From Halocatena pleomorpha (lineage in GTDB: Archaea; Halobacteriota; Halobacteria; Halobacteriales; Haloarculaceae), in the NCBI RefSeq assembly GCF_003862495.1, contig NZ_RRCH01000040.1:1-61423 (forward strand): 61,423 nt of DNA. Direction: 5' to 3'. The notes beneath the pieces are model-generated. The model had not been told where the DNA came from and did no database searches. It worked only from the letters and a program-made list of their open reading frames with translations. The translations under genes were made by a program, and so were the position numbers. Below, piece by piece: positions 58,368 through 61,423 of this stretch. Numbering within the stretch: the stretch's first letter is position 1; each line of letters begins with the position of its first letter.

Positions 58368-58940
58368 ATGACGAAGGTAAGCATCGGTCTCCGGGGGTGG
58401 CGCTTCGAGGAAGCGGAGGTGTTCGACGAATCGGGGGCGTTTCGACCGCTCACCGAAATGCCGCCCGATACACGCGATCGGATCGGGCGACTAATGGCAA
58501 TCATCGACAACCCGTGTGATGCCTGCTGGCTCATCCACGGTGAAGAGGAGAAACAGCGTTGTCGACCTGCTGCTGTTGTCTATGGCGAACCACTCCGAGA
58601 GGTCGTTCTGTGTGACACCCACGAGGCGGATTTCCTCTACTGGTTCCGGGAAGAGGGGGGGCGTGATCTCGTTGGCAAACGGACGTTCCAGAACGCCTTT
58701 CACCAGTGGTTTGCTGACGGCGGGCGCGCTCCAGATGGATACGCGGGGGTCGAACACATCGAAACGGATCCCGATCTTGTGCCCGAGCCATCCCGAGAGG
58801 AACCCACTTCCAGCGTTCACGAGACTCCGTCTCGTGAGCCAACCAGAACCGCTGGTTCTGGTGACGACGACGAACTGGTCTCCCTGAGTGAAGAAGAACA
58901 GGAATCGCTCGACATCGACCTCGATGATCTTGATGTATGA
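58368..58940 (+). CDS. Haloarchaeal protein with Cys-rich core and an IS-like inserted tail segment
   Basis: This 190-residue protein starts at [14 protein letters not shown] possible zinc site is formed by [17 protein letters not shown] and [14 protein letters not shown] (residues about 49-88). The C-terminus is acidic ([16 protein letters not shown]). Residues about 149-169 ([20 protein letters not shown]) are encoded by a 69-base double-hairpin sequence that also occurs in the putative IS end at 61.3 kb, in the same reading frame. The stop overlaps the RNA methyltransferase start by 4 bases. The function is unknown; the pairing suggests a link to RNA modification. Confidence 0.7.
58810..58878 (+). 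repeat. Double-hairpin repeat inside a coding sequence, copy 1
   Basis: The 69-base segment contains two adjacent hairpins: CACGAGAC-type arms (58819-58837 region, loop TCC) and CCAGAACC-GCT-GGTTCTGG (58842-58860). It matches the reverse complement of 61275-61343 at about 63 of 69 positions by eye. Three of the six differences fall in the second hairpin's loop, which is AGC in one copy and GCT in the other, as if inverted. Confidence 0.8.
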
Positions 58941-59668
58941 GTGAAACGTCGATCTCGGTGGCAATCGTCGACGCACAAACCCCCGGCAACGTCGGAACTA
59001 TCGCCCGTGCAATGAAGAACTTCGGTCTCTCCGATCTGTATCTCGTCGATCCGCCGTCTCTCGATCCCGACGGTGAAGCCTACGGGTTTGCGGGCCAAGC
59101 GCGTGAAGACGTGCTTCCGAATGCCCAAACGGTCCAGTTCGAATATCTCGTAGAAAACTTCCATACTGTTGGATGTACAGCAGTCGCCAACACTGATGAC
59201 CGTCGCCACATCCGTTACCCCTTCAAAACCCCCCGCGAGCTAGCTGACTCTCTCTCTGGAATCGAGACCGACACGCTGGTTGTGTTCGGCCGGGAGCGCG
59301 TCGGGCTTCACAACGAGGAACTCGAACGACTCGACGAGATCTGTTCTATCCCCGCAAGCGCGTCGTATCCGGTGCTCAACCTCGGCCAAGCAGCGACCGT
59401 CGTTCTGTACGAACTCCGAACTGTGACGCTCGAAGAAACCCAACTGCCGGACGACATCGTTCGCGCGCCCGAGCAAGATCTCGAAGGGCTGCACGAACAG
59501 TTCGCTACATTCCTCGAACCGATCGAAGCCGAACCCGAACAACGAACACGGTTACGACGCCTCTGGCGACGTCTCCTTGGCCGTGCACACCCTACACGAC
59601 GGGAAGTAAGCTCGCTTCGAGGCGTGTTTCGACGCGCAGAATCACGGCTCGAAAAACGGGACGACTGA
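58937..59668 (+). CDS. SpoU/TrmJ-type RNA 2'-O-methyltransferase
   Basis: This 243-residue SPOUT enzyme begins [25 protein letters not shown] with the SpoU motif 1. Motif 2 is [15 protein letters not shown] and motif 3 is [16 protein letters not shown], forming the knotted SAM site. The C-terminal segment is basic. The TrmJ-type methylates the ribose at position 32 of tRNAs. It overlaps the upstream gene by 4 bases. Confidence 0.9.
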
Positions 59669-60139
59669 TCCGGACACACGAAGCGAGCGTCAGTGGGTCG
59701 GTCAGTTACACCGACGCCCGCGACACGCAATACGAAGTATCATCGGTCGGGGTCCAGAGAAGCAGTGGTCCCGCGACTCTGGCACATGTTTTCGGCATCG
59801 AGTGAAAACGAGCGATAGAATCACCGTCTCCACCGATCACTGTCGGACCCGTCGGATGAAGGCCACGCCAGCGAGGGGGTTCCACTGCTGAGCTGCGTCG
59901 GTATCTAATACGCACACCCAATAAATATACACTTTCGAATTGGATTTAATCTTAATGTAATGTTACATCTATTCATTACATGAATATAATACGTGTCCCG
60001 TATCCTCCTCAACGACAGCGGTACCTCCGACCGACAATGGGCAGTGGTTCCAGTTTGCGTCGTCGATCCGTGAGTGGTGTCATCACTGGTTGAGCGGGTG
60101 TGCGTTAGGATTAACAGCGTTCATCCGGTAGTAAAAACC
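59669..60139. other. Gene-poor region before the IscA-type gene
   Basis: These 471 bases contain no supported protein gene. A minus-strand open frame at 59706-59921 lacks a recognisable family. The part from 59900 is AT-rich, with a promoter-like stretch. The conserved motifs of RNase P RNA and 7S RNA were not seen. Confidence 0.4.
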
Positions 60140-60496
60140 ATGAGTTCCACGGTCAAGTCGGACACTCCGATTGCTGTGACGGAGACCGCTGCGGAGGAGG
60201 CGATCAATCTGTTAGAGGGAGAAGATATGGACATCACAGAGGCGGGTCTCCGACTGTTCGTTCAGCAAGGGGGGTGTGCCGGTCTCTCATACGGAATGCG
60301 GTTCGATCTTGAGCCGGAAACCGACGACACGGTGTACGAACACCACGGTCTGCGCGTGTTCGTCGATCCGGCCAGCATGGAGTACATCGAGGGGAGCGTT
60401 TTGGACTTCGAAGGTGGGCTGCAGGGTGCCGGATTCCACGTCGAGAATCCGAATGTAGTAAGCGAATGTGGCTGTGGTGAATCGTTCCGCACGTGA
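60140..60496 (+). CDS. Iron-sulfur cluster carrier protein (IscA/ErpA/HesB family)
   Basis: This 118-residue A-type carrier starts at MSSTVKSDTPIAVTE. The three conserved cysteines are present: RLFVQQGGCAGLSYGM and VSECGCGESF near the C-terminus. It should hold and pass on [2Fe-2S] or [4Fe-4S] clusters to target enzymes. The start was chosen because upstream in-frame sequence is not conserved. The gene is not linked to other Fe-S assembly genes here. Confidence 0.92.
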   Translation: MSSTVKSDTPIAVTETAAEEAINLLEGEDMDITEAGLRLFVQQGGCAGLSYGMRFDLEPETDDTVYEHHGLRVFVDPASMEYIEGSVLDFEGGLQGAGFHVENPNVVSECGCGESFRT

Positions 60497-60519
60497 TCTG
60501 TTTTGCTGGCGCGCTCGGG

Positions 60520-60720
60520 TTATTCCGATAATTCGAACGCCACTTCGACCTCAGCTTGATACTCGCGGGCGTCTGCGGTTGCAATCTCAACGCCCAGATC
60601 TTCGACTTCGACCCAGAGCACGTTGTCGAGCGTCTGTTCCGCTCGATCGATGGCGTTCGCCGTCGCCGCATCGAATCCGTCCTCGCTCGTCCCGATGAGT
60701 GTGATTTTTTTGTACACCAT
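60520..60720 (-). CDS. Dodecin family protein
   Basis: This 66-residue protein begins [20 protein letters not shown] and has the flavin-stacking tryptophan in [16 protein letters not shown] and the closing strand [11 protein letters not shown]. In Halobacterium the dodecamer stores riboflavin and other flavins. It converges on the IscA gene. Confidence 0.95.
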
Positions 60721-60820
60721 GGTGTGTTGGTTCGGCAGTGTTCAGTCGTTTCCCGATCTCCGTGCTGGAACGGCCCAGCGAATGGAAATACGCACGCTTC
60801 CGTAGTCAAGGTAGTGGATA

Positions 60821-61033
60821 ATGAGCGATCTCGAACGATTGATACAGGTCGGGACCACAAAACGTTGCATGGTGACGATTACCCCACCGCGTGAACGGAC
60901 GTGCGAACGCTGTGGCCGCACGGATGTATGGCGTCCTGAACGCAAAAACTGGATCGTTGACGGCGACGTTGGTAATCCCTACTGTATTCACGATTGGGAC
61001 ATCAACGGGAGCTACAACCCGATCGAAAAATAG
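60821..61033 (+). CDS. HEWD-family small zinc-binding-like protein
   Basis: This 70-residue protein has CERCGRTDVW with a Cys-x2-Cys knuckle, and later YCIHDWDINGSYNPIE, where HDWD takes the place of the family's name motif. The single Cys and His nearby may complete a metal site. It is a conserved haloarchaeal family of unknown function. It lies 3 bases upstream of cutA and the two are presumably cotranscribed. Confidence 0.8.
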   Translation: MSDLERLIQVGTTKRCMVTITPPRERTCERCGRTDVWRPERKNWIVDGDVGNPYCIHDWDINGSYNPIEK

Positions 61034-61036
61034 CTG

Positions 61037-61228
61037 ATGCCGACCGCATACATCACCTGCCCGCGATCGGACGCTGACGAGCTCGCAACGGCTCTTCTTG
61101 CGGACCGACTCGCCGCCTGCGTCAACATCGTTGACCGCCAACCGTACGACGTTCCGTGCATCGAGCGTTTCGAGGATGATCCGATCGATCCGTTTCGCGC
61201 GTGGCGCGACCGGAGCGTCGAGGAGTGA
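61037..61228 (+). CDS. cutA: CutA-like divalent cation tolerance protein with a large internal deletion
   Basis: The 63-residue protein has the first strand and helix of CutA (MPTAYITCPRSDADELATAL, LAACVNIVD) and then jumps to its C-terminal part (PYDVPCIERFED, AWRDRSVEE). Normal CutA is about 100 residues, so roughly 35-40 residues are missing between Asp33 and Pro36, in frame. These would have carried the core strand with YxW and the E-x-x-L-L-x-K-T-T segment. The trimer could not form, so the product is probably non-functional. A putative IS end begins at or within a few bases of its stop codon. Confidence 0.8.
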   Translation: MPTAYITCPRSDADELATALLADRLAACVNIVDRQPYDVPCIERFEDDPIDPFRAWRDRSVEE

Positions 61229-61231
61229 CAT

Positions 61232-61257
61232 CCTCCTCGCCGTAAACGGCGAGGCTT
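61232..61257. repeat. IS200/IS605-type terminal palindrome at the cutA stop
   Basis: CCTCGCCG-TAAA-CGGCGAGG forms a perfect 8-base stem with a 4-base loop. Read on the minus strand it follows the putative TnpB tail by about 25 bases, where the right-end hairpin of haloarchaeal IS200/IS605 elements sits. Confidence 0.6.
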
Positions 61258-61274
61258 CCCACGCAGTAGGAATA

Positions 61275-61343
61275 CCAGTTAGTTGTCGTCACCAGAACCG
61301 CTGGTTCTGGTTGGCTCACGAGACGGAGTTTCGTGAACGCTGG
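61275..61343 (-). repeat. Double-hairpin repeat inside the putative IS end, copy 2
   Basis: This is the reverse-oriented partner of 58810-58878, with about 63 of 69 positions equal. It includes CACGAGAC-GGA-GTTTCGTG and CCAGAACC-GCT-GGTTCTGG read on the plus strand. It lies within the partial minus-strand coding sequence at the window edge and encodes its last residues. Confidence 0.8.
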
Positions 61344-61423
61344 CAGAGGGTTTCGACTCTCGAAATGCCGTGAGCGTCATCTGCGCTGGTACGCTCTTCT
61401 CACGGTGTCGTTCGAAAGACGCG
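61279..61423 (-). CDS. 3' end of a probable TnpB-like coding sequence (partial, runs off the window)
   Basis: An open frame enters from the right edge and gives 47 residues before a TAA at 61281-61279: SVPAQMTLTAFRESKPSASV, then [18 protein letters not shown]. The terminal palindrome of IS200/IS605 type lies about 25 bases beyond its stop, as expected downstream of a tnpB gene. No catalytic motif of TnpB is inside the window, so the identity rests on position and on the hairpins. Confidence 0.45.
   Translation of the reverse strand, partial: ASFERHREKSVPAQMTLTAFRESKPSASVHETPSREPTRTSGSGDDN

Follow-up and report, generated by a model that had tools for sequence, protein, structure and literature searches.

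A double-hairpin palindromic element of haloarchaea found in frame in a conserved protein gene and in a tnpB gene of Halocatena pleomorpha

Results and Discussion

An inverted pair of double hairpins

The window analysed here, a stretch of 61,423 nt from Halocatena pleomorpha, comprises the whole of contig C35 in a haloarchaeal draft genome of 61 contigs and 3.65 Mb. A repeat search of the window found two inverted arms of 85 nt that are 88% complementary (58801-58885 and 61268-61352). An earlier note on this DNA had described a double-hairpin segment of 69 bases at 58810-58878 and, inverted, at 61275-61343, with a loop turned over between the copies. Both observations hold: 63 of the 69 positions are identical by hand count, leaving six differences, and the two copies have reverse-complementary loops, GCT and AGC, in the second hairpin (HP2). 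The hairpins with these loops (58842-58862 and 61291-61311) belong to otherwise similar copies. Loops GAA and TTC, again reverse complements, occur in the locus pairs L120/L121 and L331/L333, and the recurrence of such loops suggests repeated loop inversion. The first copy (58813-58867, plus strand) folds as DNA with a z-score of -5.5 against shuffles. The family covariance model scores it at 68.5 bits (E 5.6e-19) and the second copy (61286-61340, minus strand) at 64.3 bits (E 1.1e-17), both copies being among the 28 sequences used to build that model.

The first copy is located in an open reading frame (58368-58940, plus strand) encoding a conserved haloarchaeal protein of 190 amino acids without a known family. 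Profile searches with this protein gave no Pfam or NCBIfam match, and 118 of 146 genomes of the family contain a match to the gene. Its end is overlapped by the start of a gene for a TrmJ/YjtD-family (SpoU) RNA methyltransferase (58937-59668, plus strand; PF00588, E 7e-26; TIGR00050, 183.8 bits, above the cut-off); the element is in frame inside a conserved gene upstream of an RNA methyltransferase, as had been proposed. We interpret 58816-58866 (TTC...TGACG), 51 nt or 17 codons, as the unit that was inserted net. The alignment of orthologues that the earlier note called for found no counterpart of the segment in any of the 27 sequences that were aligned individually; the orthologues are mostly of 174 amino acids, against 190 here. 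The closest of them (genome G042) reads ATSV-DDEIASLSE where the host protein begins PTSSV and then carries the insert. In the alignment, the insert falls in a variable acidic linker ahead of a conserved C-terminal motif, with the conserved domain on one side of it and the conserved C-terminus on the other. Judging from the reading frame, its peptide is probably translated as part of the host protein, where it may serve as a linker and would be harmless or neutral.

The second copy encodes the C-terminal tail of a tnpB gene on the minus strand, of which the 3' end (61279-61423) is present; the frame is still open at the contig end, which cuts the gene. The assignment is based on the translation, on the homologous locus L002, a tnpB-like ORF in which the Cas12f1-like TNB domain PF07282 is matched (E 3e-16), and on a tail shared with loci L196 and L237. 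The true terminal hairpin, or right end, of this tnpB element is CCTCGCCGTTTACGGCGAGG (61235-61254, minus strand), which corresponds to the 3' hairpin of the Rfam family HgcC in homologues. The double hairpin is inside the reading frame and upstream of this terminal hairpin, which bears out the description of this copy as coding for the tail of a TnpB-type protein that adjoins a terminal palindrome. Halogeometricum pallidum and Halorubrum alkaliphilum also have tnpB genes with the tail VHETxSREPTRTxGSGDDD, followed by a stop codon, in which the letters of the loops differ, and a plasmid of Haladaptatus carries the same element and flanks. An HgcC-like RNA match (RF00062; 61212-61338, minus strand) extends over the tail and the terminal hairpin; its 35.7 bits (E 1.5e-5) do not reach the gathering score of 50. 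Weak HgcC matches were likewise found in L002, L196 and L237. Since the match recurs in the window and in these three loci, the element is likely to lie within an RNA-coding 3' region of this tnpB group. A cutA gene (61037-61228) is apparently internally shortened: it encodes 63 amino acids, its Pfam CutA1 match covers only positions 3-33 of the 99 in the profile, and it ends in a stop codon directly adjoining the tnpB element's border.

A family of elements dispersed in haloarchaea

The family to which the two copies belong has the consensus CGTY-HP1-GCCAA-HP2-RACG, modelled from 28 distinct copies as gCGTY-HP1-nGCCAA-HP2-GACG. The element has about 55 bases and the inserted unit, TTC-HP1-GCCAA-HP2-TGACG, has 51-60 nt, adding about 17-20 amino acids to the host protein when in frame. 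In the stems, 96.4% of the cells are paired, and covariation is 0.472, compared with 0.130 after shuffling and at most 0.066 after sliding. Paired changes were found at all eight pairs of helix 1 and at the two apical pairs of helix 2, whose lower seven were fixed by the search pattern. The exact pattern has 17 matches in the genome and its reversed control none; this absence and the covariation rule out a chance origin of the repeat.

With the covariance model, about 30 distinct sites in the genome of the window gave 47 matches, and a relative had up to 143 matches, some sites being counted on both strands in these totals. Matches were present in 125 of the 146 genomes of the family and in 20 of its 22 genera. 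A scan of named genomes returned at least 114 stretches, and the titles among the matches listed are those of haloarchaea or other halophilic archaea. The element is placed between genes, within tnpB genes and in frame inside unrelated genes, and there are tandem arrays that overlap at a common GACG. Viral contigs had no match to the exact pattern and so gave no support to phage carriage. No known Rfam family was matched, save for the weak HgcC match over the tnpB copy, and a full-text literature search for the element sequence gave only unrelated papers among the best 15 of 310 matches. We conclude, with a probability of about 0.8, that the segment is a copy of a dispersed haloarchaeal palindromic element, most likely copied here from the tnpB 3' end.

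Origin of the copy in the host gene

The earlier note took the double hairpin for an IS200/IS605 end. In that case the hairpins would be the tnpB 3' end, a guide-RNA scaffold region, and all other copies IS remnants or captured pieces. Some observations agree with this: among 170 copies with readable flanks, 36 are in or beside a tnpB-like ORF, the tnpB copy of the window is within the weak HgcC-like match, and the flanks of the copy in the host gene match the tnpB tail. However, the motif test gave no tnpB signature for the other 134, and elements such as those of L085, L076 and L078 have no flank in common with tnpB. Within tnpB genes, moreover, the element is found in the N-terminal half, in the middle of the tail or at the C-terminus, on either strand. 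These variable positions largely refute the idea that the hairpins are a tnpB end, which we regard as improbable for the family as a whole. The ends of IS200/IS605 or IS1341 transposons, which are boundary-located and IS-specific, were likewise rejected as a class for the element, given its varied sites in tnpB and the location of most copies elsewhere.

The particular copy in the host gene is a different matter, because its flanks point to a source. The stretch 58801-58885 (plus strand) resembles the tnpB 3' end in both element and flanks and, from the inverted repeat and the flank comparison, is taken as a copied tract; L002 is 94% identical to it over 78 nt. At the 28 flanking positions outside the element, 23 match the tnpB tail, while the best match to any copy beyond that tail family is at most 16 of 28. 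Because of this similarity, and because the same tnpB tail is present in other genera, the proximate source appears to be IS DNA. The proposal that IS DNA was captured in frame can therefore be kept as regards the in-frame insertion and its proximate source, the tnpB 3' end, although not as regards the double hairpin being an IS end. The alternative is that the copy inserted independently and that its likeness to the tnpB tail is due to coincidence or target preference. Its junction does obey the general rule of the family (after CG, with TGACG at the right end), and the left flank ACTTCC and the right flank GACGAACT are host-like in relatives. As the host sequence in relatives itself resembles the tnpB tail at these junctions, some of the likeness between the flanks may be older than the event. 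Nevertheless, the number of flank matches, together with a peptide that equals that of this particular tnpB tail, makes an independent insertion unlikely. Most likely, as far as the sequences indicate, the copy was taken from this tnpB 3' end. It would then have made no independent hop into the host gene; the element carried in the C-terminal tail of tnpB would have been copied, together with about 14 nt flanking it at either end, by homeologous recombination or gene conversion, as the flank similarity suggests, and would now encode a linker-like stretch of the host protein.

Copies inside genes and the reading frame

The effect of the element on reading frames was examined in copies whose two flanks are coding by codon usage, an open frame through the element not being required. 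Such flanks were found for 26 of the 170 copies, and 16 of these read through, in frame and without a stop, with unit lengths of 51, 54, 57 or 60. All 16 are in sense orientation and in the same phase, and nearly all end in SGD. Unit lengths divisible by three make up 48% of all copies (82/170) and 45% outside the set with coding flanks. The cases that break the frame are mostly in tnpB genes or in one multicopy gene family. When independent hosts other than tnpB were counted by hand, with shared insertions grouped (AbrB-like; copper ATPase in three genomes), about 13 of 15 were in frame against the 45% background (P 0.001). Intergenic copies are free in length, whereas the codon statistics show that copies inside genes persist mainly if the unit length is divisible by three; the unit is then read as a short hydrophilic peptide with SGD at its end.

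The in-frame hosts include AroE, archaeal GlmM, RlmE/FtsJ, GlyRS and a copper ATPase, as well as an FAA hydrolase, a macro domain protein, an M20 peptidase and a DUF1028 protein; as with the Rickettsia palindromic elements (RPEs), a repeated palindrome is thus found in frame in several unrelated genes. The enzyme domain itself contains the unit in AroE, GlmM, RlmE and the copper ATPase; for GlmM and RlmE, alignments to solved structures are obtained only as two pieces, one on each side of the element. A DUF5781 protein of the window's genome (L119, region 1389-1674, contig C59) has an in-frame tandem array that splits its Pfam match in two. One insertion is common to the copper-type P-type ATPases of genome G066, Halorarius litoreus and Haloferax prahovense (L076, L222 and L236), G066 possibly being of the same species as one of the other two. 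Since these three ATPases share it, this in-frame insert has been retained across divergence or transfer.

In ten members of a multicopy gene family from two species, the element is at an identical codon (TGGTG/T) with differing stems: L120-L124 in the genome of the window (contigs C23, C33, C34 and C61) and L325, L327, L331, L333 and L334 in G043. Between matching Cys codons, the 55-nt elements of this family break the frame and the 51-nt elements bring stops. It could be supposed that elements inside genes are not translated and are removed instead, by RNA processing or by ribosomes bypassing the double hairpin. This would account for five copies here and five in a relative with a disrupting element at one site between Cys codons, and for dN far below dS on both sides of the element among the five copies of the window's genome. 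However, the genes with an insert form mosaics with intact paralogues, and one of them contains an additional stop, so the low dN/dS may predate insertion; this weakens the case for a translational bypass in this family, which had looked strong on dN/dS. Removal would also not need lengths divisible by three, which are strongly favoured elsewhere. We consider removal very improbable, and for this family it is simpler to suppose that the element inserted repeatedly at a favoured site or was spread there by gene conversion.

Insertion rule and mobility

In the GlyRS gene of genome G056, GTCGACG precedes a unit of 57 nt that has GACG at its end. Seven relatives were searched, of which two could be aligned at the site; both, the closest aligned, are without the unit, and one reads GTCGACGGCGAG. 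When TTC...TGACG is removed, the copper ATPase yields VDGETTHLGG, a BNR-like protein yields ADDGGVTW and a GIDE-domain protein yields YVDDGTDRVLVD, which we take to be the usual motifs of these proteins. In the reconstructed empty sites, and in the two genes that were compared directly, CG is found at both ends of the unit. These sites show that the family spreads by insertion of the unit after a target CG, often GACG, which leaves CG at both ends. Members of IS200/IS605 insert 3' of a fixed target without duplication, and the CG at both ends fits either this chemistry or a short target duplication; the insertion chemistry proposed here is deduced from such junctions. The number of Y1 transposases is only weakly correlated with the copy number of the element (rho 0.28), and 4 of 19 element-rich genomes had no Y1 match; a Y1 transposase as sole mover is thus unsupported, and no transposase could be tied to the element among the genomes compared for Y1. 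A wider view is that these protein-coding palindromes are still mobile, that they are independent of or ancestral to the rickettsial ones, that they insert after CG by a single-strand reaction of IS200/IS605 type and add peptides to essential enzymes, and that tnpB 3' ends act as carriers to host genes. We offer this only tentatively and hold it to be possible rather than probable.

Comparison with known palindromic elements

Translation of selfish palindromes within working proteins has been reported from Rickettsia and from a small number of other bacteria. With tens of copies per genome and sites in AroE, GlmM, RlmE, GlyRS and a copper ATPase, a haloarchaeal family would extend the phenomenon to a second domain of life, and it could then be tested in archaea that can be cultivated and manipulated genetically. 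The element would be a source of new protein loops, and is a likely annotation trap.

The RPEs are similar in being selfish palindromes found in frame in unrelated metabolic and housekeeping genes, but they are bacterial and of about 150 bp (PMC10969869), whereas the unit here is archaeal and of 51-60 nt. REPs and REPINs associated with RAYT are also short hairpin pairs in many dispersed copies; they are reported to have a GTAG tag and a dedicated Y1 transposase (PMC2817692, PMC3116915), a link that is not seen here. Membership of this REP-RAYT group was rejected, as the ends have no GTAG and 4 of the 19 rich genomes are without Y1 matches. With respect to tnpB 3' ends (HgcC, RF00062, and sot RNAs), the copy at 61286-61340 is in such a region, but the element is also widespread without tnpB.

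The closest resemblance is to the CGTC-tagged REPs. Di Nocera et al. (2013) distinguished two superfamilies of REPs, one with GTAG and one with CGTC tags; members of the latter are reported from five bacterial phyla without a dedicated transposase, some are in frame and add 20-30 residues, and they include RPE-4 and RPE-6 of Rickettsia conorii, many of which are in frame in genes (PMC3733652). Like these REPs (PMC3733652), the haloarchaeal elements are short and palindromic, carry a terminal CGTC tag, are often dimers and occur both between and within genes. In the REPs the tag is an unpaired CGTC (or TGTC/CCTC) at one end of a hairpin; the outward-facing ends found here are CGTT or CGTC on the left and GACG, the reverse complement of CGTC, on the right, the right end being partly fixed by the search pattern. 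The stems have 8 pairs (HP1) and 9 pairs (HP2) and the loops 3 to about 7 nt, the values described for the REPs being 8-9 bp and 4-5 nt. In the published elements almost every stem begins with two A-T pairs and loops are of 4-5 nt (PMC3733652), whereas the haloarchaeal stems start with C-G/A-U (HP1) or A-U/C-G (HP2), have varied loops and nearly always form a hairpin pair. The A-T stem start with a CCA tail was not found, the GCCAA linker after HP1 being a partly similar tail. As the A-T starts are lacking and the agreement in tail and loop sizes is partial, we do not place the element in any of the four published CGTC-REP families. Those families have been reported only for bacteria (PMC3733652), and a 2025 survey of bacterial and archaeal REPs has no haloarchaeal name in its main text (PMC12306157). 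The haloarchaeal element is a new family, archaeal in distribution, and its kind, to which the CGTC-tagged REPs come closest, was previously reported from Bacteria only.
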